From assembly GCF_000013225.1 (NCBI RefSeq), contig NC_007776.1, positions 2,796,501 to 2,860,500 on the forward strand: a DNA stretch of 64,000 bases, in the 5' to 3' direction. Positions 7,724 to 54,008 of this stretch are shown in pieces. Every line of letters starts with the position of its first letter. Position 1 is the first letter of the stretch. Below the pieces are notes generated by a model. The model made no database searches. It saw nothing but the letters and a program-made list of their open reading frames with translations, and was not told the DNA's origin. The position numbers were made by a program, and so were the translations under genes. This DNA comes from Synechococcus sp. JA-2-3B'a(2-13) (GTDB lineage: Bacteria > Cyanobacteriota > Cyanobacteriia > Thermostichales > Thermostichaceae).

Positions 7724-7729
7724 CCAAAA

Positions 7730-9492: not shown

Positions 9493-9595
9493 AGATTCCC
9501 GTTTGCGACAGCTTCAGCCCCTTTCTCAAAGGGAGAGAGGAGTTGAGGCGATGCACAGCCCGACTGGGAATGCTCCTCTTGGCTCAATTGGCTGA
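7826..9595 (+). CDS. tnpB: TnpB nuclease with 14-unit octapeptide repeat inserted at the RuvC-III aspartate
   Basis: 589 residues from a GTG start. It has the OrfB_IS605 layout: an N-terminal helical/WED-like region (FKYELLPNGQQ), RuvC-like D184 (GMDMGIARLA) and E268 (CIEDLRVRN), then a zinc ribbon TCPCCGH ... CVACGYENNAD. D364 ends that motif and should be followed directly by LVGAINILARG. Instead 14 copies of RGSGPEAF (112 residues) separate D364 from LVGAINI. All catalytic aspartates/glutamate and zinc cysteines remain, so the insertion is in frame and does not remove residues, but it splits the third RuvC motif from its helix. The C-terminal ~80 residues read through the right end of the element. 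Activity is uncertain. Confidence 0.88.
   Translation: MQRLQAFKYELLPNGQQERQMRRFAGSCRFVYNKALALQKERHEQGQKKLGYAGLCQLLTAWRHSADTAWLADAPVHPLQQALQDLERAYSHFFAQRAGFPKFKKKGRSDSFRYPDPKQIQLDQANSRIFLPKLGWLRYRNSRDVVGKVKNVTVSKHAGKWFVSIQTEREVNWPIPQGGAVGMDMGIARLATLSDGTFYAPLNSFKRHEARLRKAQQALSRKVKFSNNWKKAKARLQRIHSQMANARRDFLHKVSTAICKSQAIVCIEDLRVRNMSKLAAGTADAPGKNVRAKSALNKAILDQGWYEFRCMLEYKLAWKGGRLIVVPPQNPSRTCPCCGHVSSDNRQTQAWFECVACGYENNADRGSGPEAFRGSGPEAFRGSGPEAFRGSGPEAFRGSGPEAFRGSGPEAFRGSGPEAFRGSGPEAFRGSGPEAFRGSGPEAFRGSGPEAFRGSGPEAFRGSGPEAFRGSGPEAFLVGAINILARGIQLLRDEGQDTTDAAVGMRVGEPPVSAWMACGSNRTGGRKQEPAETTAQGAIHAQRGRNLRPSGRGGCQDSRLRQLQPLSQRERGVEAMHSPTGNAPLGSIG
8918..9253 (+). repeat. Perfect tandem array, 14 x 24 bp
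   Basis: Fourteen head-to-tail units of 24 bases, each starting CGCGGCAGCGGG and ending GGAGGCCTTT, total 336 bases, with no mismatch noticed between units. The array is in frame and encodes (RGSGPEAF)14. It begins immediately after GAT (RuvC-III Asp codon) and ends immediately before CTG (Leu of LVGAIN). There are no spacers between units, so it is a minisatellite and not a CRISPR. Confidence 0.98.
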
Positions 9596-9859
9596 TGAAC
9601 CAGAATCCAGCCCCTGGAGTTGCTCCCACTGGGCGGGGGTAAAGGTGCGCAGGGCTAAAGCATGTAGGCGGCCATCCTGCAGGTAAGCTTTCAGGGCCTC
9701 ATTCACCAGCCGGTGCTGTTTGATCAGGGGCAAGCCCTGGAATTGTTCCGCCACCACAATGGCCTGGAAATGGTGGCCATCGCCGACCGTGTCTTCCACC
9801 TGTACTCTCGCACCGGGCAGGGCGGCCCGTACCAACGCCTCAATTTCTCGTGGATCCAT
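9584..9859 (-). CDS. BolA-family protein
   Basis: 91 residues from ATG 9859 (MDPREIEALVRAALPG). The BolA fold is recognisable from the sequence VEDTVGDGHHFQAIVV, the downstream LIKQHRLVNEALKAYL and the end HALALRTFTPAQW. Length and order fit small BolA/YrbA-like proteins. BolA proteins act with monothiol glutaredoxins in Fe-S and iron regulation. The longer frame to 10000 adds ~47 residues derived from a dispersed repeat (LLLRNADATRQR) and is not BolA-like, so the internal start is preferred. It lies 100 bases downstream of the methyltransferase gene on the same strand. Confidence 0.88.
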   Translation of the reverse strand: MDPREIEALVRAALPGARVQVEDTVGDGHHFQAIVVAEQFQGLPLIKQHRLVNEALKAYLQDGRLHALALRTFTPAQWEQLQGLDSGSSAN

Positions 9860-32133: not shown

Positions 32134-33776
32134 TTCCGGCTTGCCAACTTGCTCCCCCGGCGTCCTACCCGTTTCCGCAGTTGGGCTGCTGCCCACTCCA
32201 CTTCTGGGATCCGCAGGTAGAGAGCTCCGGCGGCGAACAAGCTTAGACCTAAACCCGCGGCCAGCCCGGCCCCAATGACGGCGGTGAGCAGGGGAGACCC
32301 CACAATCTCGTAGGAGCGCAGTTGGGTCCACAGCCAATGGCTGAGCCCCCCGGCCAAGACGGTGATCCCCAGCAACGGCAGCAGGGCTTGTCCCATCTCC
32401 TGCCAAGGGATCCCTGGCAGGTGCCGGTGCAGCCGGATCCCCAGTCCGATCACGGCTATCAGGTTGACGCCGGCGGTGGCCAGGGCAATGCCCGGCGCTC
32501 CAAAAGCCTGCAAAAATAGGAAGTCCAGAAGGGCATTCAGGCCAATGGCCATGCTGCTGATGCGCAGAGGCGTAGCCCCATCCTCCAGGGCATAGAAGAT
32601 CCGCACCAGCACATCCCGCAGCAGGTAACCGGTCATCCCCAGACCATAGGCCATGAGTAGGGCTGCCACCTCTTGTGTCACCTCCGGCGTAAAGCGCCCC
32701 CGCTGGTAGGCCACTTGGACAATGGGCTCGGCCAAAGCCACCAACAGCATCGACAGGGGCAGGGTCACAATTGCCGTAAGCATCAGCCCTTGGCGGATAC
32801 GCTGGCGCAGCTCCGGCCAACGGGATCCATCCCCTGCCAACTGGGCATAGAGAGGCATCAAGGGCACCAGCACCATGTTGGAGAGGATCCCCAGCGGCGT
32901 TTGTACCAGAAGCTGGGCATATCCCAAGTTGCCGATGGTGCGATCCCCAGGTACGAAAGAGGCAAAAAACAGATCCACATAAACATTGATGTGGATCATC
33001 CCGGAGGAGATCACCGCCGGCAACATCAGCAAGCCCACCGCCCGTACCTGCGGGGATCCCCACTCAAAGCGCAGGCGCGGTCGCCCCAGCCCTAACCGCA
33101 CCTGGAGCGGAACTTGGGCCAACCATTGGGCAATGGCCCCGATGAGCACGCCCCAGGCCAGCAAAGTTGGGATCCCCGTCCATCCCAGCGTGACCAGGAT
33201 CCCGATCACCGCCAAGCTGGAGATCAGCGGGCTAAGGGCAGGCAAGGCGTAGTGTTCGGCAGCATTCAGCGCTCCAAAGCCGATGCCAATCCACCCCGAG
33301 AGCAAGGCCAAAGGGGCCATGATCCGCAGTTGCGCAGCGGCCAGAGCATGGACTTCGGGGCTGGCTCCCGGCGCATTCAGGCGCACCACCCAGTCCGCTC
33401 CCCACCAAAGGCCCAAGCTGACCAGCAGGAGCAGGCAGCCTACCAAGGTGGAAATGGATTCCAGCCAGGCAGCCGCATCCTCCCTGTCCCGATCCCGCTG
33501 CTTTTTGAGGACACTGACGATGGCGCTGTGAAAAGGGCCGTTGATCCCTCCCAGCAGAATCAACAGAAAACCGGGCAGGATGTAGGCTACCCCGAAGGCG
33601 CTGTACTCCGGCCCCGAGCCATACACTGCTGCAATCAAAGCTTGGCGAATAAAGCCTATGCCCTTACTGAGCAAGGTCGCCCCGGCCACCAAGCCCGCCA
33701 CCGACATCAACGAACGGGATGGCCCTGCTGAAGGAGATCCCCCAGGGATCTCTTCCTGAGTGGCAGACTCCTCCAT
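32130..33776 (-). CDS. murJ: MurJ/MviN-type lipid II flippase
   Basis: 548 residues with about 14 hydrophobic segments and the MurJ opening VAGATLLSKGIGFIRQALIAAVYGSG (~28-53), plus PGFLLILLGGINGPF and AYQRGRF. It flips lipid-linked peptidoglycan precursor across the plasma membrane and is normally essential. The ATG (33776) overlaps the stop of the tnpB copy B frame (TAATG). Only ~42 bases of non-transposon DNA remain between element end and start, so the native promoter may have been displaced (see findings). Confidence 0.93.
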   Translation of the reverse strand: MEESATQEEIPGGSPSAGPSRSLMSVAGLVAGATLLSKGIGFIRQALIAAVYGSGPEYSAFGVAYILPGFLLILLGGINGPFHSAIVSVLKKQRDRDREDAAAWLESISTLVGCLLLLVSLGLWWGADWVVRLNAPGASPEVHALAAAQLRIMAPLALLSGWIGIGFGALNAAEHYALPALSPLISSLAVIGILVTLGWTGIPTLLAWGVLIGAIAQWLAQVPLQVRLGLGRPRLRFEWGSPQVRAVGLLMLPAVISSGMIHINVYVDLFFASFVPGDRTIGNLGYAQLLVQTPLGILSNMVLVPLMPLYAQLAGDGSRWPELRQRIRQGLMLTAIVTLPLSMLLVALAEPIVQVAYQRGRFTPEVTQEVAALLMAYGLGMTGYLLRDVLVRIFYALEDGATPLRISSMAIGLNALLDFLFLQAFGAPGIALATAGVNLIAVIGLGIRLHRHLPGIPWQEMGQALLPLLGITVLAGGLSHWLWTQLRSYEIVGSPLLTAVIGAGLAAGLGLSLFAAGALYLRIPEVEWAAAQLRKRVGRRGSKLASRN

Positions 33777-35086
33777 TACCTTGTGTCCTGCACCCCAACC
33801 ACTGCCTCAACAACAAAGTAAACTACCCGACTCCGACCGCTAAAGCGGTACGGAGCGGGCTTTCGGTAGCCCTGCAGTTGGCAAGCCAACCACGAACCTC
33901 TAGGCTGGTTTACGACAGCCCCCAAGAGCGCAATCACATTCGCACCATTCAAATCCGCATCCCCTTCCCATCCACAGTGCCCACACTTGAACGACTTGCC
34001 ACTGCGGTAGGATTGCGCAGGATCGGGATGGATGTGTAAACACTTGTGACAGGTCTGCGACGTGTAGGCGGGCGGAACAAGAATCAGAGAAACCCCTGCA
34101 ACCCTCGCCTTGTACTCCAGAAACTGACGTAGTTGGTAGAACGCCCAACTGTTGGTCCTACGCCGCTCGGCTTTGCTGCGTGGCTGTTGATTGACCCTTT
34201 CCCGGATCCCTGTCAGGTCTTCCAGAGCAATAGCGCTGTTGGTAGCTTTTGCCCTAGAGACAATAGCTTTGGAGATGCGATGATTGACCCACGTTTTTGC
34301 TACGCAACGCTGACGCGACTGAAAGCGTCTCTCCTTGCCAGACAGCCGTTGCAACAGTTCTCTGCATCTGCGCCGCGAACTGCGGGTGCCCTTACTGGCT
34401 TTGCGTTGGAGTACCGCCCTCAACCGGGAGTAGTGGTCTCGGACTCTGTTCAACTGCTGTCCATTCCAGTTGTCCCCGTCTGACGTATGGGCAATATCTG
34501 TCCTTCCAAAGTCCACCCCGATCACCTTGTCGGTATCTTGTTGCTTGGGTGGCTTTTTCTCTACGCAAATCTGGATGTAGTAGGAGCCATCCTTCCGCTG
34601 GACTAGGGTGGCCGATTTGGGGTTAGAGCCAGCCAGCATTCCCCTCTGGTAGTTACCAATGGCTAGCTCAAAGCGTTCTCTCCCTTCAACCGTGGTCAGC
34701 GACACCGTCCAGTCTTTTTGACGGAACGAAAAGATGCGAGCGTCGTAGGTAACAAAGCCGCTCTTAAACTCCTTGACGGGACGCTTTTTCTGCTTAGCCA
34801 CTTTGCGGGAACCCGCTACCCGTCTGCACACCTGTTGGTCGCGTAAGCGGGACGTAGTCCTTGCCAAGTTACTGGACAAGCCAAACCGGGCTCGAATCTC
34901 GTAGTAGCAAAGGGATTGCAGCTTGACCGCGTTGACGATCTTCTCCGGCGTGTTCTGGTTGACCCAATTCAAGGCTTGGCCAAAAGCCTCCAAAGTCGCG
35001 TCCAATTTGGCGGCTTGCGACGGGGACACCTTGAGCTTGCAGGATATGGTCAGGACTTGGCTCATAAGTTCATTGTACTTCATCAA
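33776..35086 (-). CDS. tnpB: TnpB RNA-guided nuclease (copy B, undeleted)
   Basis: 436 residues, nearly identical to copy A but retaining the nine-residue segment RTTSRLRDQ. The RuvC-like residues are GVDFGRTD, ALEDLTG and DADLNGAN, and the zinc ribbon is TCHKCLH ... KCGHCGW. The frame does not stop at the element's right end but continues ~16 residues into flanking DNA (VVEAVVGVQDTR) and ends at TAATG, overlapping the murJ start. Differences from A are scattered substitutions, so the two copies have been separate for some time or arrived independently. Confidence 0.92.
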   Translation of the reverse strand: MMKYNELMSQVLTISCKLKVSPSQAAKLDATLEAFGQALNWVNQNTPEKIVNAVKLQSLCYYEIRARFGLSSNLARTTSRLRDQQVCRRVAGSRKVAKQKKRPVKEFKSGFVTYDARIFSFRQKDWTVSLTTVEGRERFELAIGNYQRGMLAGSNPKSATLVQRKDGSYYIQICVEKKPPKQQDTDKVIGVDFGRTDIAHTSDGDNWNGQQLNRVRDHYSRLRAVLQRKASKGTRSSRRRCRELLQRLSGKERRFQSRQRCVAKTWVNHRISKAIVSRAKATNSAIALEDLTGIRERVNQQPRSKAERRRTNSWAFYQLRQFLEYKARVAGVSLILVPPAYTSQTCHKCLHIHPDPAQSYRSGKSFKCGHCGWEGDADLNGANVIALLGAVVNQPRGSWLACQLQGYRKPAPYRFSGRSRVVYFVVEAVVGVQDTR

Positions 35087-40153: not shown

Positions 40154-41269
40154 ATGCAGGTGAGGTCAAGCCCAAAGAATGAGCCACGGTCTGGGCGGGC
40201 TTGGCACAGCCCTTGGGGAATGGCAATCGCCCTAGTTGGGATCTTGGCCTTGCTGCTGCTCGGTGCCGGCTGTTCTGGCCAGGGGGAATCTGTGGCTTCC
40301 CCCCCTGCGTTGATCCCTCTCCCACCTCAACCGGGAACCGAGTCGATTCCCATGCCAGTGCGTACCCTGGGCAACAGCCGCTTCAAGCTCCTGGGCCTGA
40401 CAGTGGGGGTGGCCGGGAGCGGAGCTGAGGTGTTACTGGATACCGGCTCGGCAGGTTTGCGCATCATAGCGACAGCAGCAGGTCGCTTTGGCCTGGAACG
40501 GACGGGGATCCCTTCCACTGTGACGTTCGGAGATGGCACGCAATTTATCGGGGTGTTGGCCCGCGCCCCCTTCAGCATAGGAGGGATCCCCAGTCGGGAG
40601 CCGGTAACGATTCAGTTGATCGACCGGATCACCTGTGTGGACGCCCTGGTGGCCAGTTGTTCAGAGAACTTGTTTGGAGAAGGGCGGCCCTTCGCCGGGA
40701 TCCTAGGCACGTCCTTGGATGAGCGCAGCCCCGACCGCGAGCTGTTTAGTCCGCTCACCCGCCTTCCGGGCAATTTCCGCTCTGGGTACATTATTCAAAC
40801 GGGGGGCTTCAACTCCACCCAGGGCCTGTTCACGGTTGGCCTAACGGCTGCCAACACCGTCGGCTTCAATTTCCGGCAGTTTCCCCAGGTGGGAAGCTTT
40901 CCCGACGGCACACCCATCTGGCGGGATGAGGCTTTGCAAGTGGCCTACAGCATCAGCAACACTTCTATTCAAAATGCTCTCAGCCCCACCGTTTTTGACA
41001 GTGGTTCTTCCGACATTTTTCTCAATGTCAGGCTGTTGGGGGCAGCTCCCTTCTCCACCTCGACCTTACCCCCTGGGGCAGAGTGGCGAGCTGTGCTGGA
41101 GGGGGCTTTTGACTACCGCATTCGGGTTGGCTTTCCCATTACGCCCAGCCGGGATCGGATTTTCGTCAACGGCAACCAGGGGGTGCAACTGTTGGGCATG
41201 CCGCTGTTTTTCAATATCGACGTTGCCTTTGATATTGAAGGCGGTCGGATCGGCTTTCGCCTACGTTGA
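40154..41269 (+). CDS. Lipoprotein with two aspartic-protease-like motifs (DUF3443-like)
   Basis: 371 residues. A lipoprotein-type signal is at ~20-41 (MAIALVGILALLLLGAGC with lipobox GAGC). Two pepsin-like active-site motifs follow: LLDTGSAGLRI (about residues 95-105) and VFDSGSSDIFL (about 280-290), roughly 185 residues apart, as in bilobed aspartic proteases. VGSFPDGTPIWRDE and NGNQGVQLLGMPLFFNIDVAFDIE recall the last strands of the second lobe. Lipid-anchored and probably periplasm-facing. Protease activity is suggested by motifs only. Confidence 0.7.
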   Translation: MQVRSSPKNEPRSGRAWHSPWGMAIALVGILALLLLGAGCSGQGESVASPPALIPLPPQPGTESIPMPVRTLGNSRFKLLGLTVGVAGSGAEVLLDTGSAGLRIIATAAGRFGLERTGIPSTVTFGDGTQFIGVLARAPFSIGGIPSREPVTIQLIDRITCVDALVASCSENLFGEGRPFAGILGTSLDERSPDRELFSPLTRLPGNFRSGYIIQTGGFNSTQGLFTVGLTAANTVGFNFRQFPQVGSFPDGTPIWRDEALQVAYSISNTSIQNALSPTVFDSGSSDIFLNVRLLGAAPFSTSTLPPGAEWRAVLEGAFDYRIRVGFPITPSRDRIFVNGNQGVQLLGMPLFFNIDVAFDIEGGRIGFRLR

Positions 41270-41327
41270 GACGAAGTTGTTTTCAACATCCAAAAGCATT
41301 GGGATCACTTGCGGAGAAGAACTTGCC

Positions 41328-41804
41328 ATGTTCGGCCGAGCCTTGAAAACCGGGAACAGCACGCTGCACAGATGGCCTTGGGTTTGGGGACTGCTGTTGT
41401 TGTGTTGGTTGGGGCTAGGTGGGCCAGGGTGGGCCGTGAGCTTAGGGGATCCCTTGCCCGAATGGGCACAGCCCATGCCGGTGGGGCGACAGCGCTTGCG
41501 GGGGGTGGAGCAATACCGAGGTCAAGAGCAGATCCGCGCCTATGGCAACGAAGCGGGACGGGTGTTTTGGATTCAAATCCACAGTCATTCAAACTTACCT
41601 CCGGATTACCGGGAGTACTTGGGCGAATACCAACACTTTCCGGTAGAAGTCGTAGAAGTGGTGCCCTTGCGAGCCCGACGGCTGCGCTTCCGCCAGGGGG
41701 ATCGCAGTGCTGAGTGGCAGGTGGTGGGCATGAGCGGTCGGTTTCAGGCGGAGGCGATCAGCAGAGATTTGGCTCCGCCAGGGTTGTTTGGAGATCCCTC
41801 GTGA
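41328..41804 (+). CDS. Small secreted or membrane-anchored hypothetical protein
   Basis: 158 residues from ATG 41328 (MFGRALKTGNS). Hydrophobic segment 15-35 (WPWVWGLLLLCWLGLGGPGWAV) is a signal peptide or anchor. The soluble rest is short beta-rich sequence (RGVEQYRGQEQIRAYGNEAGRVFWIQIHS). It lies 58 bases downstream of the protease-like lipoprotein and may form an operon with it. No family recognised. It is the last typical-composition gene before the A+T-rich Argonaute. Confidence 0.6.
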   Translation: MFGRALKTGNSTLHRWPWVWGLLLLCWLGLGGPGWAVSLGDPLPEWAQPMPVGRQRLRGVEQYRGQEQIRAYGNEAGRVFWIQIHSHSNLPPDYREYLGEYQHFPVEVVEVVPLRARRLRFRQGDRSAEWQVVGMSGRFQAEAISRDLAPPGLFGDPS

Positions 41805-41868
41805 AGAGCAGGAGAATTAGAGCTTATCCTAGAGATCCTAGAGAGAAACTTGAAACTAGAGTCTGCCA

Positions 41869-44109
41869 ATGAATTTACTCCAGAAGAAAGTTGAGGTTAC
41901 TCTTAATCGCTTCTTCGTCAAGGAGCTAACTCAAGAAGAGCTCACCTTCTATGAGTATAGTTGCAGGCCAAACCCTCTTCCAGATCTAGGAGAGGAGCAG
42001 AGGGCTCTCTCCAAGATTTGTAATCAGCTAGGTGTAATGGCTGTTCGTCTGGGAAATCGCATCATAACCCGAGAAAAAGTTCCGGCCAGTAAACTCAAAA
42101 CAGAGGAATGGGAGTTGGAAGAGCTTGGTTCTAAGGCTCTAGATTGTACAGACCCTACAGAGAGACAGGCTCTAGAAACTTTCGAGCGCAAGAAACTAGA
42201 TTGGAGTCTAAGATCTAAGTACAAAAGAACAGAGATTGAGCGATCAACAGGAGGAGGATTGATCTGGTGGGTTACGGGTCTGGAAGGAGTAGAACGGATT
42301 GAGGACTCGGAAGGAGTAAAACCACTTTGCGGAGATGGGTGGGAGGTTCACAGAGGAAGAGAGCTAGACGTTGTTATTAGACAAGATAAGAAGCTCTATC
42401 TAGAGATCGACATCCGATACCATTTCTACAGCCCATGGACGCTGCATGAGTGGCTGGAAAATTACCCAGATGTCTCAATTGAAATTGTACGAAACACATA
42501 CAGGACAAAAAATAATAAATACCCAACTTGGGAGTATCGAGGCATTATTTCCAATCAGTCGCCAAGGGAAGTATGGTTAGCGGAGCTAAACACTAGCTTA
42601 GCGGATTATCATGTACAGAAGTACGGAGCAACTCCAGAAGAAGTTGATGGCTCTCTGGTGGTTCAAGTGGTCTCGAGAGAACGCAATTTCAGACAAAAGG
42701 CAGAGCCTATCCTTCATCTATCGCGGAGACTGTCGCCTGTTTTAACTTTGGAGATGCTAGCAAGTATAGAAGATCAAAGATGGACTGGCAAAAAAGTTAG
42801 CTCCTTGGTTAGCGAGCACATCAGAAAAAGTTTAGAAGAGAGATTGAAAGAGTCTAAAGAGACCGCAAAAACTATTATAGAAAATGTCTACAATATTTCT
42901 GACTTTCAGGCTGATCCCCTAAAAGCAGAAGGATACATTATGCCAAGTCCAAGGCTATTGGGGTTTGGTCATAGACAAGTCCAAAACCCCGCGAGAGTTA
43001 GGTACCAAGGATGTGCAAGAGTTGGCGAGACAAAGTTTGGACTTCTAAATCTTGACGATAATAAACGTGAGTATCCTACTGAGGTTCGCAAGTGCCTACT
43101 TGAAGTAGCTAAAAAGAGCGGAGCAAGAGTTGAAATAGACTTTTACGCAACCCGTCAAGATTTGCCTGAAGGCGACCTTGCTCAACAGAGGTTTTGGCAA
43201 AGCTGGGCCGACAAAGGGATCAAAACCGTTCTGGTTGTCATGCCCTTGTCGCCTAATGAGCACAAGCAAAAGATCCGCTTGCAAGCACTTCGAGCAGGAA
43301 TAGCAACTCAGTTTATGATTCCTGGAGCTGACCCCTACAAAGCTCTAAATGTCGTACTAGGACTTCTGTGTAAAGCTGCGTGGCAACCCGTGTTGCTTGA
43401 ACCCCTCGATCATCCTGAGTGCTCCGAGCTTACCATTGGTTTTGATGTGGGGACGAATCGAGAGCTTTACTACGGAACCTCTGCCTTCGCGGTACTGGCC
43501 AATGGTCAAAGCTTAGGCTGGGAGTTGCCCGATATACAAAGAGGAGAAACTTTTTCCGGCGAGGCAATTTATCAAACCGTGTCCAAGCTCGTCAATAGAT
43601 TCTACAACAAATTTCATCGATACCCTAGAAAGGTTCTTTTGATGAGGGATGGCTTAGTTCAAAGAGGCGAATTTGATAAAACAATTGAGGAACTAAGAAA
43701 AGAAAAGATTGCTGTGGATATTGTTGGAGTGCGCAAAAGTGGCACAGTCAGAATGGGAAGAGAGGAAAAAGGAAGCTATAGAGACGCTGCAATGGGCACT
43801 GTCATTTTTGACCATGAACGAAGGTCATTTATGCTCGTAACAAGCCAGCCCATTAAGAAGTCCTCGGTGCCAATTGGCAGCGCAAGACCGCTGCGAGTTG
43901 TCCATGAACACGGCAACACTCCTTTGGAAGTTCTGGCTATACAAACTTACCATCTCTCCCAGCTTCATCCCGCCAGTGGTTTTCAAGCCTGTAGGCTTCC
44001 TTGGGTATTGCACTTTGCCGACAAAAGCAGTAAAGAGTTCCAGCGCATTGGCAACAGCATTTTTAGTGTGCTGCAGAACATAAACCGAGAGAAGTTGATT
44101 GCCGTCTAG
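41869..44109 (+). CDS. Long prokaryotic Argonaute with complete DEDD catalytic tetrad
   Basis: 746 residues. The PIWI tetrad is D526 (GFDVGTN), E560 (RGETFSG), D594 (LMRDG) and D718 (LHFADKSS). Spacings of +34 and +68 from the first Asp equal those of Thermus Argonaute. The MID 5'-phosphate pocket motif is visible as H465-K466, Q481 and K502. An N-terminal and a PAZ-like region precede MID. No partner nuclease or helicase gene is next to it; upstream and downstream genes are small hypotheticals. Base composition is clearly A+T-richer than its neighbours and there is no GGATCC in the gene, signs of acquisition. Cyanobacterial relatives (for example from S. elongatus) use small DNA guides to cut DNA. 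Confidence 0.93.
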   Translation: MNLLQKKVEVTLNRFFVKELTQEELTFYEYSCRPNPLPDLGEEQRALSKICNQLGVMAVRLGNRIITREKVPASKLKTEEWELEELGSKALDCTDPTERQALETFERKKLDWSLRSKYKRTEIERSTGGGLIWWVTGLEGVERIEDSEGVKPLCGDGWEVHRGRELDVVIRQDKKLYLEIDIRYHFYSPWTLHEWLENYPDVSIEIVRNTYRTKNNKYPTWEYRGIISNQSPREVWLAELNTSLADYHVQKYGATPEEVDGSLVVQVVSRERNFRQKAEPILHLSRRLSPVLTLEMLASIEDQRWTGKKVSSLVSEHIRKSLEERLKESKETAKTIIENVYNISDFQADPLKAEGYIMPSPRLLGFGHRQVQNPARVRYQGCARVGETKFGLLNLDDNKREYPTEVRKCLLEVAKKSGARVEIDFYATRQDLPEGDLAQQRFWQSWADKGIKTVLVVMPLSPNEHKQKIRLQALRAGIATQFMIPGADPYKALNVVLGLLCKAAWQPVLLEPLDHPECSELTIGFDVGTNRELYYGTSAFAVLANGQSLGWELPDIQRGETFSGEAIYQTVSKLVNRFYNKFHRYPRKVLLMRDGLVQRGEFDKTIEELRKEKIAVDIVGVRKSGTVRMGREEKGSYRDAAMGTVIFDHERRSFMLVTSQPIKKSSVPIGSARPLRVVHEHGNTPLEVLAIQTYHLSQLHPASGFQACRLPWVLHFADKSSKEFQRIGNSIFSVLQNINREKLIAV

Positions 44110-44173
44110 CCAAGGGAGGGGATCCCCACCTGCCGGCCTTGCTAGGATTGGGGGGGTGGTTGGTGTTGCGGCT

Positions 44174-44368
44174 ATGGAGATGAATGAGGTCTGGAAGACC
44201 TTTCTGAGCAATCCTGTTCCGTTCTGTGGCGGTTTTCTCAGCGGCCTGCTGCGTTTGGATGTGAAGCAAGATCCGCTGCGCAGTTGGCTGGAGTCCCAGG
44301 GGCTGAGGGTGGAGGAGCCCCCGCCTTCCGGTCGCTCCGACGGCCCCCAATCCATTTCCATTGAATAG
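44174..44368 (+). CDS. Small conserved-looking cyanobacterial protein
   Basis: 64 residues from ATG 44174 (MEMNEVWKTFLSNPVPFCGG). A central short hydrophobic stretch FCGGFLSGLLRLD is followed by KQDPLRSWLESQGL. Short proteins with the pattern NPxxFxGGFxxGxLRL...DPLxSWL occur widely in cyanobacteria. I recall the pattern but not a name. It starts 65 bases after the Argonaute stop and returns to the usual G+C. Confidence 0.6.
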   Translation: MEMNEVWKTFLSNPVPFCGGFLSGLLRLDVKQDPLRSWLESQGLRVEEPPPSGRSDGPQSISIE

Positions 44369-44497
44369 GCGTACTCAATCGGCGGGCAGAGAGTAGGGAT
44401 CCCTTCCGAACGCTTTCTCTCAGGTGTGGGAAGCGCTCTGATCCGGGCACAAGCAGCGACAAGAAGGGCAGCAAGAGCGGTGTTGCGAGGTGAGCTG

Positions 44498-45733
44498 ATG
44501 TTCCCTGAGCCCTCCCAATTTAGGAAGCGGCAGGGATCCCTTCGAGGCTGGGGCTATCTCGGCGGGGTGGTGTTCCTGGCAACGGGACTGGTCGGTCTGC
44601 CGTCAGGGGATCCAGCCGTGGCCCAATCGGCTCCCTCTTCTCTTGCCAGCCCTAAGCAGGATCCCCAAGCTTGGCTGGAGCGCTACAACGCCGCTCTAGA
44701 GCAATTGCCCCCTTTGCCCAACTTGCAATATCGCCAGCAGGTGCGGGTGGAGGGATCCCAAACCTTCACAGCCACGTTGGATGTGCTCTACCGCCGCGAC
44801 GGCAGTTGGCAGGCTTGGGTAGCCGAAGGGGATCGCATCCGCCTCTTGGATTCGCGCCAATTGGAAGTGGTGAACCAGTCGGATCTGCTGCAGCTGTACT
44901 CGGTGTATGTGAGCCGACCGGAAGCCCTCTTGCCCTCGGTGAGCTTTTACTTGAAGGCGGATCCCAGCCGCTACCGCGTCCTCTCCTCAGAACGGGTGGA
45001 TTTGGCTGGATCCCCTGTCCAGCACTTGCGCCTAGAGCCCATTCAGGAAGGCCAGTTGCGGGAGCTGTGGCTGGATCCGCAGTCGGGGCTGCCGCGGCAG
45101 GTGTTGCTGTTTTTGTCGGGGGTGTGGGGGCAGGCCTATGTCCTGATGGGGTTTACGGCGGTGCCAGCTCCCGAGGGAGGGGAGCGCTACTGGCTGCCGG
45201 AGAGCACCCGCATCAATTTGGGCTATGGCTTTTGGACCCTGGAGGGCCTGAACCGCCGCGTGTTCAGGGGATCCCTGTCCATCCAGCATGACTACCAGGA
45301 CTACCGCATTTTGCCAGAAGGGACGCAGTTGCGCTTTTTGCCTTCGCAGCCGCCGGTGGATGCGCCGCCGGTGGTAGCCGGCCTGCCGGGGAGCGCTCCT
45401 CAAGCGGAGTTGGGAGATGTGCGGGCCTTGGGAGTGGATGAGCAGGGCAACCAGCAGTTCAGCATTGGCCTGGGCCGGCGCTCCAGCCCGGACAATTCCT
45501 TGGAAGACCGAATCGTTGCTTTCAACCTAACCCGACCCACCAGCCGCAACGCCCTGACCCAAATCGATACTTTAGCTCTTTTGCCTCTGGGGAATGGCCA
45601 GTTGCCCATCTATCTCTTCCAATTCGACACCGGTCGCCCCCTCTCGCCCCTGCAGGGGGTAGAGCGCCCGCAGGTGGATCCCAACGAGGTCTTCGCTCCT
45701 AAGCCGCCAGCCATCAAACTCTTTGGAGATTAG
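44498..45733 (+). CDS. Exported LolA/RseB-like hypothetical protein
   Basis: 411 residues from ATG 44498. The N-terminus (WGYLGGVVFLATGLVGLPSGDPAVAQS) is a signal peptide, giving a periplasmic or thylakoid-lumen protein. Beta-rich stretches (YRQQVRVEGSQTFTATLDVLYRRDG; YLKADPSRYRVLSSERVDLAGSPVQHL) resemble LolA/RseB-like lipid-binding folds, but that is inference. The longer frame to 44426 is basic and lacks a signal, so the internal start is preferred. NUDIX gene follows directly. Confidence 0.65.
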   Translation: MFPEPSQFRKRQGSLRGWGYLGGVVFLATGLVGLPSGDPAVAQSAPSSLASPKQDPQAWLERYNAALEQLPPLPNLQYRQQVRVEGSQTFTATLDVLYRRDGSWQAWVAEGDRIRLLDSRQLEVVNQSDLLQLYSVYVSRPEALLPSVSFYLKADPSRYRVLSSERVDLAGSPVQHLRLEPIQEGQLRELWLDPQSGLPRQVLLFLSGVWGQAYVLMGFTAVPAPEGGERYWLPESTRINLGYGFWTLEGLNRRVFRGSLSIQHDYQDYRILPEGTQLRFLPSQPPVDAPPVVAGLPGSAPQAELGDVRALGVDEQGNQQFSIGLGRRSSPDNSLEDRIVAFNLTRPTSRNALTQIDTLALLPLGNGQLPIYLFQFDTGRPLSPLQGVERPQVDPNEVFAPKPPAIKLFGD

Positions 45734-46238: not shown

Positions 46239-46626
46239 GTTCCGTATTTTTACGGAAGAGGTTTATCGGGGTTACCTTTATTATCTTGTCCTGCAGGCTT
46301 TCCGTGGGAAGTTCCCGAGTAAGAAAGCCAGCAGACAATCTGAGGGATAGCCTTCACCTTTAGAGATTGGCTGATGAGCAATAGTCATCGATCTCCCCAG
46401 GAGGAGAGTTTTTCTGAATACGGATTGAACGCTGAAACTGCCTTTGAGTTCGTGCAGCCTTGGCCGTCTTGTTGGGCTTGGCTCATCTAAAGATCTCGTC
46501 TGGGTCAGGGCTGGGCTTGAACTGTATTCTGGAAAGCATTTTTTCACCGGCTTGTGGGGTAGCTAAGACTTCAGTCGTGTCATCAACCTCAGCGCAGGAA
46601 ATTGTCCGAGCACGTCCTCTCGACCC
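46239..46626. other. 388-base intergenic region upstream of the pix cluster
   Basis: Contains a perfect hairpin TTCCGTA/TACGGAA at 46240-46257 right after the NUDIX stop, and TCTCC...GGAGA followed by GTTTTT at 46392-46413, which resembles a weak terminator. The pixG promoter should be downstream of that. Short frames on either strand have no recognisable product. Confidence 0.45.
46392..46413 (+). terminator. Possible intrinsic terminator downstream of the NUDIX gene
   Basis: Stem TCTCC/GGAGA with a six-base loop followed by GTTTTT. The stem is short (5 pairs), so strength is doubtful. Confidence 0.3.
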
Positions 46627-47871
46627 ATGAACCGTCCCCCCGTCTGTACAGAAGTCTCGGCCCATCTGCTGAACGCAGAGGTCAGCTTCACAGGAGTTGT
46701 TCGGTATTTCAGTGCCTTGGACAAAGGGGAGGGGCTGGGCACTTGGTCATTGGTGTTTCACCAAGGTCGCCTGGGGTTTGCTCACCACAGCTTGGAGCCC
46801 TTGGAGCGCTTGGATCGCCACCTGCGTCGGCTCAGCCATCAAGTCTTTTCTCTGACTCGCCAAAATTGCCTACGCATCCATCGGCAGGTGGAGGCGCTAT
46901 TGGCTCAGGAGACTGGGCCTCTACCTGCAGACCTTCTGGGGCTGAGTTGGATGGTAACGGAGCAACTGCTGCCTTGGGAAGCTGCGCGCAGGTTGAATGC
47001 TTGGATCGGCGAGGAGGTGCTGCAAAATCTGTTGCTGGTTCCAGGGGGCTTTCAGCAGGAGATCATCCCACTGGACAACGTGCCCACCCTGGGCCAGTGG
47101 GATGGGGGATCCCTGCTCGACCTGATCCAAAAGCGGCTACGGGCATGGCAATCTTTGGGGCCTGAGATCACCTCCCCCTACCAACGGCCCTACTTTGCCA
47201 GCCGGGCCCAGGCAGAACGCCTTCCCGCCGAGCAACAGGAACGGCTAGGCCGGTTACTGAAGGGGTTTAGCTTCCGCCAGTTGAGCGCCCTTCTCGATCA
47301 AGACGACCTCCAGATCGCTCGCCGCCTACATCCTCTGGTCAAAGCCGGTATCCTTGTCCTGCGGGATCCCCAGCCCCCCTTTGATCGGCTGCCCAAAACC
47401 TACTCGGCCAAGCTTGAGACAGAATCACAGCCCTCAGAAACTCCCACCGTCCCTCTTCACCTGGCCAACGGGCTTGCAGATCTAGGCCCATCTCCCCAAG
47501 CCTCGAAAACCTGGATTGTGGCCTGTATTGACGACAGCGAAGCCATGCTCAGCGAGTTGCAGCGGTTGTTGGAAGGGCACAACCTGGTCATTCACACCAT
47601 CAGCGACTCTTTGAAAGCCCTGATGAAGCTGACCACCCTCAAGCCAGATTTGATCCTGCTGGACGTGGGTATGCCCAACGTGGATGGCTACCAATTGTGC
47701 AGCCTCATCCGCAAATCCTCCGTGTTAAAGGATGTGCCGGTGGTGATGGTCACAGGCCACAAAGGTCTGATCGATCGGGTGAAGGCGCGCCTGGCCGGTG
47801 CCACCGATTACCTGACCAAGCCCTTTCGGCAGGAAGAATTGCTGCAGATGGTGTTTCGCTATCTCAGCTAG
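46627..47871 (+). CDS. pixG: PatA-family response regulator, PixG-like
   Basis: 414 residues. The PatA/DUF4388-like N-terminal domain (~10-250) contains VSFTGVVRYFSALDK and LADLLGLSWMVTEQLL. The receiver domain at the C-terminus (~295-414) has phosphoacceptor D346 (LILLDVGMPNVDG) and K in YLTKPFR. In Synechocystis PixG (PisG) is the first gene of the positive phototaxis cluster and acts with the CheA-like PixL to control type IV pili. It is the first gene here, followed by pixH after 47 bases. Confidence 0.9.
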   Translation: MNRPPVCTEVSAHLLNAEVSFTGVVRYFSALDKGEGLGTWSLVFHQGRLGFAHHSLEPLERLDRHLRRLSHQVFSLTRQNCLRIHRQVEALLAQETGPLPADLLGLSWMVTEQLLPWEAARRLNAWIGEEVLQNLLLVPGGFQQEIIPLDNVPTLGQWDGGSLLDLIQKRLRAWQSLGPEITSPYQRPYFASRAQAERLPAEQQERLGRLLKGFSFRQLSALLDQDDLQIARRLHPLVKAGILVLRDPQPPFDRLPKTYSAKLETESQPSETPTVPLHLANGLADLGPSPQASKTWIVACIDDSEAMLSELQRLLEGHNLVIHTISDSLKALMKLTTLKPDLILLDVGMPNVDGYQLCSLIRKSSVLKDVPVVMVTGHKGLIDRVKARLAGATDYLTKPFRQEELLQMVFRYLS

Positions 47872-47918
47872 GGATCCCTCTAAAGGTTCGTCGAAAAAGA
47901 GATAAGGAGATGTCGATC

Positions 47919-48293
47919 ATGGTGAAAGTTCTTGTGGTGGAAGATGTGGCCTCGGAGCGACAGCTCATCAGCGATTACCTCCGCTCAGAAGGCTATCAGG
48001 TGGTAGCGGTGGCCAACGCCCAAGAGGCATTGCAGCAGATCCGCAACGACAAACCCGATGTGGTGCTGACGGACTTGGTCATGGAAGGCATGAGCGGGCT
48101 GGAATTGTGCCGCCAAATCAAGAAAAACCCGGAAACCCAAAAGTTGCCCGTTGTGGCCTGTACTTCTAAAAATCAAGAGCTGGACAAACTCTGGGGCATG
48201 AAGCAAGGGATCGATCTTTATCTGACCAAGCCTTTTACCCGCGAAGACATTTTGCGGGCCGTGAAATCAGTAGTGCTCAGCCCGAGCTCATGA
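47919..48293 (+). CDS. pixH: CheY-like response regulator, PixH-like
   Basis: 124 residues, a stand-alone receiver domain: acidic pocket E8/D9, phosphoacceptor D52 (VVLTDLVMEG), T near CTSKNQ and K in YLTKPFTRED. ATG 47919 is chosen with AAGGAG 8 bases upstream; ATG 47910 in the same frame sits on that site. PixH is the second response regulator of the Pix system, probably a phosphate sink or PilB/T-side output. Confidence 0.93.
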   Translation: MVKVLVVEDVASERQLISDYLRSEGYQVVAVANAQEALQQIRNDKPDVVLTDLVMEGMSGLELCRQIKKNPETQKLPVVACTSKNQELDKLWGMKQGIDLYLTKPFTREDILRAVKSVVLSPSS

Positions 48294-48400
48294 TTTTTGC
48301 CACTCCTGTCCTTGCTGAGCTGCGCCTCCAGTTAGGATCCCTGTGATTATCACGAATTGTTCTTAGGAGATGTCTTAGAATTGGCAGAGCGAGAACGGCA

Positions 48401-48949
48401 ATGGCGGTAGCTTTCTCCCCACACAGCCCTACTTCTACCCGTACCGGCGAGCTGTACTTACATCTACAGTTGGGGGTAGACTGTCGGGCCCTTTTGCCCA
48501 TGGCATTTGCCCAGGAAGCTCTAATTGTTGGCCCGCACCACTTTACCCCTCTCCCCAACCAGCCCGCATGGGTGCTGGGCTTGTTCAACTATCGCAATCG
48601 CATTCTCTGGGGACTGGATCTGCCGCAATTTCTCGGCCTAGAGCCCTTGGACTTTGGGCAGCCCGAACACCACTTGGTGGTGATGCGCCCAGAATTTGGG
48701 GGCTCTGCATCGCCAGTGCGAACAGGCTTGGGCCTGGCAACCCAACACGTGAAAGGAGTAGCTCGAGTGCCCGCCGAGGAGATCCAACCCTTAACAAAAG
48801 CCCAGGCAGCACAAAACAACTTTCGACTGGAGAACTTCTACGACTCTTGCAAAGGGCTGGTGTTGGAAGGGGATGAGCCTCTCTGGGTGCTCGACCCTCT
48901 TGCCATTGTCCAAAAGCTCAACTCAGTTGATTCCTCGGCAAACCCTTGA
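48401..48949 (+). CDS. pixI: CheW-like coupling protein, PixI-like
   Basis: 182 residues with a CheW-like SH3-type fold: LYLHLQLGVDCRALLPM (~18-34), VLGLFNYRNRILWGLDLPQFLGL (the typical L-G-L-x-N-x-R-G-x-I position, ~55-78) and HLVVMRPE. It couples MCPs to PixL. It lies between pixH and pixJ as in other cyanobacteria. Confidence 0.85.
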   Translation: MAVAFSPHSPTSTRTGELYLHLQLGVDCRALLPMAFAQEALIVGPHHFTPLPNQPAWVLGLFNYRNRILWGLDLPQFLGLEPLDFGQPEHHLVVMRPEFGGSASPVRTGLGLATQHVKGVARVPAEEIQPLTKAQAAQNNFRLENFYDSCKGLVLEGDEPLWVLDPLAIVQKLNSVDSSANP

Positions 48950-48997
48950 TCTTGGCGACCTTTTCCCCGACTTACCCTCACTTAAAGGCAAAATTCT

Positions 48998-51235
48998 ATG
49001 GTTTCCTTCCGTCCCCTCTTTCTCAGGCCTGCTCCATCTTCCCGGCCCCAACGCAAAGTCGCGGGATCCCGCCTGGCCCTGGCAATCAGTTTTCCTCTGG
49101 GCATCAGCTCCCTGCTGTTTGCCGTCTCTGCCGGCAGCGTAGCCCGCACCTATTTCGAGTTCAAGCCGGCGATCTCGCGGCAGTTCACCCTGCAAAACCT
49201 GAGCGATCAGGTGATCTATTTGGATGAAGTCTTGACCATGTCTGCCCGCATGGCCGCTGCCAGCGGGGATCTGTCCTGGGAAGAGCGCTACAACATCCAT
49301 GTCCCTCAGTTGGATGAGGTGCTGGCGGAGATTCAGCAATTGGATCCCGCCTCTTACGAAGCCTATGCAGCCAAAACCACAGCAGCCAACATCAAGCTGG
49401 TGGAGTGGGAAGTGCAGGCTTTTGATCTGATTCGGGCCGGCGAGCAGGAACGGGCTTTCAACTTGCTGCACAGCCCTGAGTACGAAGAGCAAAAGCGCAT
49501 CTACGCCGAAGGGATCAACCAAACCCTGGAGGCCATTCGCAGCAACATTCAGGCCAGCGTCCAGCTTTACGAGCAAAATCTGCTGCAGGCTTTGATCTTT
49601 TCCGGCATCAGCTTCCCGATTCTGCTGCTGAGCTGGGGGATCATTTTGATCCTGGTGCGCAACTTTGTGCGGGAACGCAACGCCACCTACGAGCGACAGG
49701 TTTCCGACACCCGACTGGCCCAGCGGTTTGCCGATATTGCCCGGATTCGCCAAGAGCAAGAGCTGATCGATCCCCTAACTGACTTGTTGGGCGAGATGCG
49801 CCAGCGCTTCGGTGCCGAACGAGTGGCCTTCTATCGCTTGACCGCTCCCGAAGAGGCGCAGGTTATCGCTGAATCTCACGACAGCCGCCTGCCCGACACC
49901 TTGGGCACCCTCCTCCGCAGGATCCCGGCTCCGATCCAGCAGGCTCTCCACGGCGGGCAAGTTTACGCTTTTGGCCCGGTGCCTAGGCCAGATCTGGGCG
50001 CCGACTACCTGCAGAGGCTGGCCACAGCCCAACTGAAAGCCGAGATGATAGCGCCGGTGGTGCGTGGCGATGAGCTTTACGGTTTTTTGGCAATAGGCCG
50101 CGCCCAAAGCCAGAGCTGGTCTGACGAAGAACAGAAAACCTTGGCAGAGCTGGCCAACCGCCTGGGTCAAGCTTTGGGTAACCTGGGGGCGCTGGAGCAA
50201 AAAGCCGTGGCCGCCCAGGAACGGGAGCGGTCGGAAGCGCTGCAAAGAGAGCTGCTGCAGCTTATCAGCGAGGTCACAGAAGCCTCGCGGGGGGATCTCA
50301 CGGTGCGGGCGCAGCTAACAGCCGGACAAGTTGGCATCATGGCGGACTTTTTCAACGTCATTATCGAGAGCTTGCGCGACATCGTGATTCAAGTGCAGCA
50401 GGCCGCCGGTCAAGTCAACCAATCCATTGGTCGTGACGAGGCAGCCATTCGCGAGTTGGCCGAAGCCGCTCTCCGACAGGCCACCCAAATCGAAGAGACC
50501 TTGCGCTCTGTCGAGCAAATGACGCTCTCAATCGAGGAGGTAGCCGATAAAGCCCAACAGGCCGCCACCGTTGCCGAATCTGCCGCCGCCACGGCCATCA
50601 ACAGCAGCTTGACTATGGATCGCACAGTGCAAAACATCCTGCAACTGCGGGAAACGGTGGCCGAAACGGCCAAGAAGGTGAAGCGGCTGGGGGAATCTTC
50701 CCAGCAGATTTCCAAGGTGGTGTCCTTGATCAACCAGATTGCGCTGAAAACCAACCTCTTGGCGGTGAACGCCAGTATCGAGGCAGCCCGTGCCGGCGAA
50801 GAAGGGCGAGGTTTTGCGGTGGTCGCCGAGGAAGTCGGGGCACTGGCGGCCCAGTCGGCAGAAGCCACCCGCGAGATCGAGCGCATTGTGGAAGGGATCC
50901 AACGGGAAACCGGCGAGGTGGTACAGGCGATGGAAACCAGCACCGGCCAGGTGGTGGAGGGAACCCGCTTGGTGGAAGCAGCCAAGCAGAGCCTGGGACA
51001 AATTGTGGAAGTCTCGCGGCAGGTGAACCAGCTCTTTCAGGCCATTGCCCGCTCCACCGATGCCCAGGCAGATGCATCTCAAACGGTGCGCCAGTTGATG
51101 CAGCAAATCGCCAACATTGCCGCCCAGACGGCGGCAGCCTCGCAGCAGGTGGCCAACTCTCTCCAGGCTACGGTGGCGGTTGCCCGTCAGTTGCAGACTT
51201 CTGTGTCCACCTTCAAGGTGGGGGAGGCGGTTTAG
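48998..51235 (+). CDS. pixJ: Methyl-accepting chemotaxis protein in the PixJ position, without any cysteine
   Basis: 745 residues. Two membrane spans (about 27-45 and ~195-215) bracket a ~150-residue periplasmic helical domain. A GAF domain (~250-390: [15 protein letters not shown] ... [19 protein letters not shown]) follows, then a methyl-accepting signalling domain (~470-740) with the conserved hairpin tip [36 protein letters not shown]. In Synechocystis PixJ the GAF domain binds a bilin through cysteine. Here the entire protein has no cysteine, so covalent bilin binding by thioether is impossible. Operon position still matches pixJ, upstream of pixL by one base. Confidence 0.9.
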
Positions 51236-51236
51236 C

Positions 51237-54008
51237 ATGGGGCCGAATCCCACTTCCCTCGACCCACGCGAGTGGCAGGTTAGGCTGCAGTTTTTGGACG
51301 AAGCCCAGGCTTACCTCGACACCCTGGAGGCAGGGGTGTTGGGCCTGGGATCCCAGAGTTTGGATCGCCCCCGTTTGGATCGCTTGCTGCGGGCTGCTCA
51401 TTCCATCAAGGGCGGGGCGGCCATGATGGGCTTTCCGGTGCTTAGCGACTTAGCCCATCGCCTGGAAGATGGTTTCAAGATCTTGCAGGTGGATCCCCAA
51501 AAAGCCGACCCCGCAGTGGAGCGCAACCTCTTGGCGGCGTTGGATTGCATGCGCCAAATAGCCCAGCAGCACCGCCAGCAGCGGCTTTTGGACGAATCTT
51601 GGCTGGCAGAGCGGGTGCAGCCTCTTTTCGATCAATTGCGAGAGCAGTTGGGAGAGTTGCAGCCTGAGGACAACGTCCAAGTCCTGGCAGCAGAGGCCGG
51701 GGGCGATATGCGGGTGCTGCTGTTTGCAACCGAGGTGGAGGCCTGTCTGCAGCGGTTGGAAGGTGTGCTGGCCCACCCCGAGCAGCCCTGTTTGCGGGAG
51801 GAGTTTCTCATTGCTGCCCAAGAGCTGGGGGCGCTGGGGGAAATGTTGGATCTGCCTGCCTTTGCCACCCTGTGCGGCTCAGTAGTCCAAGCTCTGGAGA
51901 CGCTGCCGCCAAATGCCAAGGAGCAGGTGTTGCCCGTTGCTCAGGCGGCTTTACAAGCTTGGCGACGCTCGCAGGCCCTGGTGCTGGTCGGTCAGGTCGC
52001 TCTTCTCCCCAGCTCCTGGGATCCGGCAGAGCCTCCAGTTTCCCCCCCGCCAGAAGCCCCTCCCCCTGCAATGGCAGGAGCCACCGAGCTGCCGGATTCG
52101 ATTCCAGCCGGGGCCAAAAGCGCTGCCGAGATGCTACGGGTGCCGGCTCGCCCTCTGGAACAGTTGGGGGAGCTGTTGGGAGAGCTCATAGGGGAGCGCA
52201 ACCGCTTAAACAGTCGCCTGCAACGGCTGCGGGAGCTGGTCAGCTTGTTCAAACGGCGGGTTCGCACTCTAGAAGAAACCAACAGCCGCCTGCGCAGCAG
52301 CTACGACCGCGTCGCTGCCACCGTGCCTGCTTCTGTGCTCTTGAAAAAAGAAGGGGATCCCGGCCTGACCTTGGCCGATACCTTTGACCTCTTGGAGATG
52401 GATCGCTATGGAGAGATGCACCTGCTGACCCAAGAGGTGATGGAAACCGTTGTGCAAATTGATGAGGTAACCCACGATATCGACACCACCCTGCAGGAGA
52501 CCGAAGGCAGCGCCCGCCAGCTCAGCCGCCTCTCCAGGCAAATGCAAACCCGTCTCGACCAGGTGCGCATGCAGCCTCTATCGGATTTGACGGATCGCTT
52601 CCCCAGAGCGCTGCGGGAGCTGAGCTTAGCCCATGGCAAGCCCGTGGAGCTGCGGGTCTTGGGGGGATCCACCCTAATCGAGCGCTCGATTTTGGAGGCC
52701 TTGGCGGATCCCTTGTTGCACTTGGTGCGCAACGCCTTTGACCACGGCATCGAGGCTCCAGACACCCGCCTGGCCCAGGGCAAGCCGGCCAAGGGCCTCA
52801 TCGAAATTGCCGCCAGCCAACGGGGCAACCGCACTCTGATCACGGTGCGAGACGATGGGGCAGGGATCTGTCTGGATAAAATCCGGGCCCGCGCCTTGCA
52901 GATAGGGTTTTCCGCTGCCGACCTGGCTGAGGCCAGCTCCCAGGAGCTGCTGGAGTTGATCTTCCAGCCGGGCTTCAGCACCGCCGAGCGAGTCAGCGAG
53001 CTATCTGGACGGGGAGTGGGTCTAGACGTGGTACGCACCAACCTGCAACGAATTGGCGGCCAGGTGCAGGTGGAATCTTGGCCGGGACGGGGCACGCTGT
53101 TTACCCTCACTCTGCCCGTTTCTTTGAGCGTCACCCGCGTGCTGCTGACAGAATGCCAGGGGTTGATGTTGGCTTTTCCGGCCAACGCAGTGGAAGAATT
53201 GCTTATCCCCCCGCAGTTGCCTGCCGATTCCTTTCTCTGGGAAGGGGAGCAGATCCCTTTAATTCCTGTGGGCCACTGGTTTCGCTTCGCGCGCTGGCAG
53301 CCTCGCCGGGAAATTGACGAGACCCCCCTTCTCGACCGACCTGTGGTGCTGCTGGTGGTAGAAGACAACCGGCCCTATGGCCTGTTGGTGGATCGCTTTT
53401 GGCGGGAGCAAGAGGTAACTCTGCGCCCGGTGGAGGGAGGTCTGCCTCTGCCGTCGGGATTCTCCGGCTGTACGGTTTTGGCCGATGGGCGAATCGCTCT
53501 TTTCGTGGATCCGCCTGCCCTCTTGAGCTGGCTGCTCGCCCAGCGGGATCAGCCCTGTCAGTCGGCAAGGGATCCCCTTCCCCAGCCCAGGTTTGCCGCC
53601 CAGCCCACCCTGCTGGTGGTGGAAGATTCGGTCAACGTGCGCCGCTTCTTGGCCATGACCCTAGAAAGAGCAGGGTTCCGGGTTGAACAGGCTCGCGACG
53701 GACAAGAGGCCCTCGAGCACTTGCAGAGAGGAATTCCCATCCGAGCGGTGATTACCGACATTGAAATGCCGCGGCTGGATGGCTTTGGCTTGCTGGCCCA
53801 GATTCGTGCCCACCCCCTGTATGACCAGCTTCCCGTGGTCATGCTCACCTCCCGCAGTGGCGAGAAACACCGCCAACTGGCCCAGCGGCTGGGAGCCAGC
53901 GCCTACCTCTCCAAGCCCTTCCAGGAACAGGAGCTGATCCAAAAGCTGCGGCAACTGCTGCAACCAGCCTCTTCGGCACCTTCCACCGGCGTTTTGATGG
54001 CGAGGTAG
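51237..54008 (+). CDS. pixL: CheA-like hybrid histidine kinase, PixL-like
   Basis: 923 residues from ATG 51237, one base after the pixJ stop. The Hpt domain has phosphoacceptor H55 (LRAAHSIKGGAAMMGF). Dimerisation and ATP-binding domain ~330-620 contains NAFDHGIE, DDGAGICLDKI and SGRGVGLDVVRTNLQRIGG. A CheW-like domain (~625-760) and a C-terminal receiver with D841 (VITDIEMPRLDG) follow. It collects the MCP signal and phosphorylates PixG/PixH to steer twitching. All domains are intact, including the N and G boxes. Confidence 0.93.
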   Translation: MGPNPTSLDPREWQVRLQFLDEAQAYLDTLEAGVLGLGSQSLDRPRLDRLLRAAHSIKGGAAMMGFPVLSDLAHRLEDGFKILQVDPQKADPAVERNLLAALDCMRQIAQQHRQQRLLDESWLAERVQPLFDQLREQLGELQPEDNVQVLAAEAGGDMRVLLFATEVEACLQRLEGVLAHPEQPCLREEFLIAAQELGALGEMLDLPAFATLCGSVVQALETLPPNAKEQVLPVAQAALQAWRRSQALVLVGQVALLPSSWDPAEPPVSPPPEAPPPAMAGATELPDSIPAGAKSAAEMLRVPARPLEQLGELLGELIGERNRLNSRLQRLRELVSLFKRRVRTLEETNSRLRSSYDRVAATVPASVLLKKEGDPGLTLADTFDLLEMDRYGEMHLLTQEVMETVVQIDEVTHDIDTTLQETEGSARQLSRLSRQMQTRLDQVRMQPLSDLTDRFPRALRELSLAHGKPVELRVLGGSTLIERSILEALADPLLHLVRNAFDHGIEAPDTRLAQGKPAKGLIEIAASQRGNRTLITVRDDGAGICLDKIRARALQIGFSAADLAEASSQELLELIFQPGFSTAERVSELSGRGVGLDVVRTNLQRIGGQVQVESWPGRGTLFTLTLPVSLSVTRVLLTECQGLMLAFPANAVEELLIPPQLPADSFLWEGEQIPLIPVGHWFRFARWQPRREIDETPLLDRPVVLLVVEDNRPYGLLVDRFWREQEVTLRPVEGGLPLPSGFSGCTVLADGRIALFVDPPALLSWLLAQRDQPCQSARDPLPQPRFAAQPTLLVVEDSVNVRRFLAMTLERAGFRVEQARDGQEALEHLQRGIPIRAVITDIEMPRLDGFGLLAQIRAHPLYDQLPVVMLTSRSGEKHRQLAQRLGASAYLSKPFQEQELIQKLRQLLQPASSAPSTGVLMAR

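Follow-up and report, generated by a model that had tools for sequence, protein, structure and literature searches.

The gene at 41869-44109 of the window, by which we mean the whole 64,000-nucleotide stretch of DNA analysed here (positions 2796501-2860500 of a single 3,046,682-base contig), is a real, intact long-A prokaryotic Argonaute, and in sister species an unrelated kinase gene sits at the same site. Judging from sequence, we put at roughly 80% the probability that it encodes a catalytically competent, partnerless accessory nuclease, guided by DNA and limiting incoming DNA, that was gained at the kinase site. We prefer this reading because the protein has the tetrad and the guide pocket of SeAgo, the Argonaute of Synechococcus elongatus, because no partner gene accompanies it, and because its distribution is patchy, replaceable and partly cassette-borne: that several of its relatives are integron gene cassettes is a well-supported prediction from attC sites. 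The gene has the following features:

41869-44109, plus strand: long-A Argonaute gene, 746 aa, an uninterrupted open reading frame with no internal stop
42448-42738, plus strand: PAZ_3 domain, residues 194-290 (Pfam PF18309, E 3e-34, above the cut-off)
42982-43317, plus strand: MID domain match (Ago_Mid), residues 372-483 (Pfam PF22474, E 5e-5, 23.7 bits, under the curated cut-off of 27)
43264-43374, plus strand: guide 5'-phosphate pocket K466, R470, Q481 and K502, from alignment with R418/K422/Q433/K457 of TtAgo
43444-44022, plus strand: PIWI tetrad D526 (43444-43446), E560 (43546-43548), D594 (43648-43650) and D718 (44020-44022), from alignments
44104-44106, plus strand: C-terminal V746, aligned with V685 of TtAgo

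The start ATG falls at the homologous position in the nearest protein, an orthologue with 72% identity in genome G388 (which we take to be Synechococcus sp. JA-3-3Ab), and with a dN/dS of 0.13 between the two genes the Argonaute is under purifying selection. The Pfam matches, together with the sequence and fold match to TtAgo, the Argonaute of Thermus thermophilus, give the N/PAZ/MID/PIWI layout of long-A pAgos, which span ~700-750 residues. TtAgo was the only full-length match in a PDB sequence search (E 2e-69). The PADLOC pAgo model PDLC02387 covers the protein end to end (E 2e-297), so the family as such is already known; against NCBIfam NF048006 (protein argonaute, ArgnteThtga) the protein scores 26.8 bits, below the curated cut-off of 700. 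An AF2 model computed from the protein and 21 relatives (mean pLDDT 84, pTM 0.80) has TtAgo guide/target complexes as its top solved-structure matches (for example 4ncb, TM 0.77/0.84). Parts of the PIWI loops have a pLDDT below 50, including residues 557-560 at E560, and for this reason the active-site geometry of the model was left unused.

Alignment sets D526, E560, D594 and D718 against D478, E512, D546 and D660 of TtAgo, and the four residues are invariant across a 22-sequence alignment, so that the complete DEDX tetrad proposed in a preliminary description of this DNA stands. The same description gave the tetrad a spacing equal to that of Thermus Argonaute, but the intervals are 34/34/124 against 34/34/114 in TtAgo. 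It also described an H-K-Q-K 5'-phosphate pocket, which we reject: alignment with TtAgo puts K466-R470-Q481-K502 there, a KR variant with Q and K at the third and fourth positions, and the letters HKQK are found nowhere but in the unbroken run of residues 465-468, which is probably what had been read as the pocket. Ryazansky et al. (PMC6299218) list the KR pair among the pocket variants of long-A pAgos, and K-R-Q-K is found in nearly all members of the cyanobacterial clade; this analysis found no solved structure with a KR-type pocket. The residues support, at the level of sequence, the original view of a catalytic long Argonaute for which DNA-guided cleavage is likely. In three clade members (L123, L127 and L128) the fourth tetrad residue is H rather than D.

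The nearest characterised protein appears to be SeAgo, rather than TtAgo alone. Genome G408, which we take to be S. elongatus PCC 6301, encodes an Argonaute, presumably SeAgo, that belongs to the same cyanobacterial clade, is 55% identical to the window protein over 724 residues and has the same KRQK pocket and DEDD tetrad; it differs in its mesophilic host, in its other chromosomal site and in its separate branch within a poorly supported part of the clade. TtAgo shares full-length homology, the fold, the tetrad and the C-terminal valine, but it belongs to a sister clade, is ~34% identical to the window protein, has the pocket R-K-Q-K instead of K-R-Q-K and the shorter last tetrad interval given above, and is encoded on a plasmid in HB27. 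In our trees the cyanobacterial Argonautes form one clade, sister to the Thermus Argonautes (the two clades group together with support 100); within it, the pair formed by the window and G388 proteins is well supported and the exact neighbours of the pair are poorly supported. The comparison with SeAgo and other cyanobacterial Argonautes that had been suggested at the outset thus puts the window protein in SeAgo's clade, with TtAgo and the cyanobacterial active pAgos as expected of a long-A protein, and cyanobacterial active pAgos have been reported beside Thermus (PMC10653904).

Counting matches that are both long and strong, we find this clade in 29 of the 390 genomes of the class (in the scan of genome contigs a single-protein query gave no matches and an alignment query did). 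This Argonaute occurs in two of the six genomes of the genus, the window genome and G388, and is absent from the other four, which is not the vertical inheritance in all close relatives that would have spoken against a transfer. Besides the cassette copy described below, genome G476 encodes another full-length Argonaute of this clade at a distant position (G476:C1:2303621-2305768). Searches of a phage collection and of viral contigs found no relative of the window Argonaute, and carriage by phages or viruses was rejected.

The cassettes are clearest in G085 and G476, genomes of different families whose Argonaute genes are 97.2% identical and are flanked by 80-base repeats. These repeats show the anatomy of attC sites, with TAAC...GTTA outer boxes, a pair of inner arms in which a single base bulges out, and a centre that varies. 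A pattern search gave 20 attC sites, all on the Argonaute strand, and a covariance model (R1) built from those 20, whose own scores are therefore not independent, found additional sites. In G085, G476 and Gloeomargaritales VI4D9 an attC site stands on either side of the Argonaute gene; in UBA999, in one G385 copy and in Chlorogloea an attC follows it directly 3', and an Oscillatoriaceae assembly has one next to a degraded copy. If a cassette is taken to need an attC directly 3' and in the same orientation, the Argonautes of G085, G476, VI4D9, UBA999, G385 and Chlorogloea all qualify. From the GTTA cut point onward, the leaders of the G085, G476 and UBA999 genes match one another and that of one G385 copy. 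Folding of single attC sites was clear for some (z -3.9, -5.0) and not for others, and was on that account not used as proof. The VI4D9 cassette (L089:8097-11569) is interrupted by a DDE transposase gene, and G385 (L022) carries the Argonaute twice, in identical copies separated by 13.8 kb, of which the first has a full 3' attC and the second an attC on the 5' side together with a truncated 3' site.

Horizontal spread of pAgo genes is known (PMC2743648, PMC10653904), and the Argonautes bounded by attC sites offer a concrete vehicle for it. In the open-access literature that was searched, we found no earlier report of an Argonaute gene cassette. Like the defence-gene cassettes of Vibrio and of mobile integrons, the relatives of the window Argonaute lie between attC sites in cassette orientation; they differ in size, the Argonaute cassette being large (~2.3 kb), and the window copy is without attC. 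We detected no attC at 41000-45000 of the window, where the best chance match scores 9.3 bits (E 0.57), and none at the Argonautes of G388, of a BP-1-sized genome, of SeAgo and of others, so that an attC remnant at the window gene was rejected. An integron integrase scoring above the curated cut-off was found only in G537 (which we take to be UBA999), in G389 and, broken, in G330. In the window genome itself, at about 937.9-939.9 kb of the chromosome (L148:5864-7938, near C1:939773), an integrase fragment of 55 residues accompanies two attC-like sites, of which one is strong (70 bits), and together they have the makeup of a remnant integron. G389, of the same genus as the window genome, has a second type of Argonaute, with a Piwi domain, between attC-like sites at L145:5585-5635 and 7861-7980:

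L145:5665-7809, minus strand: Argonaute of the second type, an apparent cassette
L145:9284-10549, plus strand: intact integrase

The further cassettes of this integron, divergent from the integrase, include a Cass2 integron-associated protein and a ParE toxin. Although it comes from the same genus, the G389 protein differs from the window copy in belonging to another pAgo family (PADLOC PDLC02396), in lying within an integron and in occupying another site.

The window gene had been described as an A+T-rich, palindrome-free island among GGATCC-rich neighbours, and its composition agrees: at 45.3% its GC content lies below the 59.5% of the window and is the minimum among all 2.2-kb windows, and it contains no GGATCC against 205 elsewhere in the window. 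The longest GGATCC-free interval of the window is 41447-44120, and only 5 of 1138 other windows of the gene's length are free of the sequence. From base composition, 20 copies are expected outside the gene, where 205 are observed, and 0.4 inside; for GGGATCCC, 87 are observed outside against 1.8 expected, with 0.02 expected inside. Since composition predicts few GGATCC inside the gene and the excess lies outside it, what sets the gene apart is that the iterated palindrome of the genome is missing from it. The second-longest GGATCC-free interval, 7393-9852, overlaps an IS605-type OrfB/TnpB transposase gene (7826-9595) with 63% GC.

The low GC content and the absence of GGATCC could be an intrinsic and long-kept property of the family instead of the footprint of a transfer in this lineage, an explanation that we find possible, if somewhat doubtful. 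In 24 of 25 members of the cyanobacterial clade the Argonaute is A+T-richer than its flanks, its GC content correlates weakly with that of the host (slope 0.35, r 0.52), and in three Thermosynechococcus-type genomes with common neighbours, including a carboxysome-type gene cluster, the gene still has ~40% GC against 53%. Low GC is here weak evidence of recent transfer, because nearly the whole clade is A+T-richer than its flanks. An intrinsic composition does not, however, account for nearly identical genes in different families (G085 in f18, G476 in f19) with attC boundaries, which show transfer, nor for the kinase at the same site, which shows gene replacement within the genus, and the L123 Argonaute, with 55.4% GC in a context of 57.0%, lies near the GC content of its host. 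The early suggestion that the gene was probably transferred thus holds as far as the family is mobile and a gain emerges from the comparison of sites, but not on the strength of low GC, which is a family trait.

That comparison concerns the following features of the window:

40154-41269, plus strand: left flank gene with weak aspartyl-protease-like matches, common to all genus members
41346-41804, plus strand: small gene 5' of the Argonaute gene across a 64-bp gap, no Pfam match, shared flank
41779-44100: swap tract, occupied in G330, G389 and G391 by an opposite-strand gene with receiver and Ser/Thr kinase domains
44165-44368, plus strand: 67-residue gene directly 3' of the Argonaute gene, no Pfam match, shared flank
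44426-45733, plus strand: right flank gene, no Pfam match, common to all genus members

No Cas4-like or helicase partner was found in the neighbourhood, as first noted for what is indeed a solo gene, and a conserved partner was rejected more widely, since across the clade's loci no gene family beyond scattered common domains recurs beside the Argonaute in independent lineages. In G388 the orthologue lies between the same neighbours, and the junctions agree: its 5' leader is recognisably homologous and its stop stands in an identical context. The closest sampled species is G330, two of whose proteins are 97% and 96% identical to those of the window genome, against 92% and 83% for G388, and it has at this site the receiver-kinase gene, an orthologue of which occupies the same site in G389 and G391; G390 is rearranged there. 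The site is a gene swap between the Argonaute and an unrelated kinase gene in sister species. No orthologue of the kinase occurs elsewhere in the window genome or in G388, where the best matches are paralogues with 38-39% identity.

Synonymous divergence bears on the order of events. The kinase copies of G330, G389 and G391 differ by a dS of 1.05-1.34, similar to their flanks, and the Argonautes of the window genome and G388 differ by a dS of 1.35, above the ~0.55-0.90 of their flanks. Because the divergence of the kinase resembles that of its flanks and the Argonaute pair exceeds its own, the kinase is likelier to be ancestral at the site, and the Argonaute was probably gained by replacing the resident receiver-kinase gene, a direction that rests on few genomes. 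Inheritance of the Argonaute from the ancestor of the genus, followed by loss or replacement in the relatives, would explain why the G388 orthologue stands at the same site with matching leader and stop, but we consider it unlikely, given that the kinase copies diverge about as their flanks do, as though the kinase were ancestral, and that the genome nearest to the window genome, G330, has the kinase. The excess divergence of the Argonaute pair also implies that its two copies may not stem from one simple event. An import tract running on into the right flank was suggested by gene 44426, with an unusually high dS of 0.50 against G330, and was dropped because gene 44165, which adjoins the Argonaute, has a usual dS of 0.16 in the same comparison.

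Hybridisation among co-existing species is documented in this hot-spring population (PMC12755884). Tentatively, Argonautes of the clade may have spread among hot-spring cyanobacteria as cassettes, the window copy being a candidate settled cassette that has since traded places with the kinase gene through homologous recombination among species living together. Whatever its history, a swap of kinase and Argonaute in a studied and highly recombining population (PMC12755884) provides matched genetic backgrounds in nature, some carrying the gene and others lacking it.

As an accessory defence nuclease, the window Argonaute would load short 5'-phosphorylated DNA guides through the KRQK pocket of the MID domain and the C-terminal carboxylate, with the PAZ domain taking the 3' end, and the PIWI tetrad would cut complementary DNA at the growth temperature of the hot spring, which may limit plasmids and transforming DNA. 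It would act alone, having been gained by replacement of the resident receiver-kinase gene, and the same clade would also move as integron cassettes in relatives. SeAgo itself cleaves DNA under the direction of DNA guides; it reduces transformation and keeps the RSF1010 plasmid from being maintained (PMC10653904, PMC10269773). We regard as quite unlikely a mainly chromosomal role, in which the protein would help to complete replication by separating linked chromosomes at the terminus. Such a role has been proposed for TtAgo in T. thermophilus, and SeAgo and LrAgo, when expressed in E. coli, carry terminus-derived guides and aid division under gyrase inhibition (PMC10269773). Against it stand the patchy occurrence and the replaceability of the gene (absent in four of the six genus genomes, three of which have the kinase instead); moreover, SeAgo gives its own host no ciprofloxacin protection (PMC10269773), and S. 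elongatus ago mutants are reported to have wild-type morphology and growth (PMC10653904). Between the orphan roles originally offered, defence and chromosome separation, defence is therefore favoured for this solo gene. On the practical side, a SeAgo relative from a thermophile is attractive as a programmable nuclease in the temperature range that separates SeAgo from TtAgo.

Exchange is also visible to the right of the site. From about 46300 to at least 51.7 kb (46300-51755), the window is more than 99% identical to G388 (L020), against 61-90% in the 2 kb upstream. Since G330 is ~95% identical to both over the same interval, the tract seems to have been exchanged recently, the likely direction being from the window lineage into that of G388. 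To the left, a TnpB-like gene with a Cas12f1-like TNB domain (33776-35086, minus strand) has a partial, diverged match in G330 and a 90% copy in G388 close to the Argonaute region of that genome.
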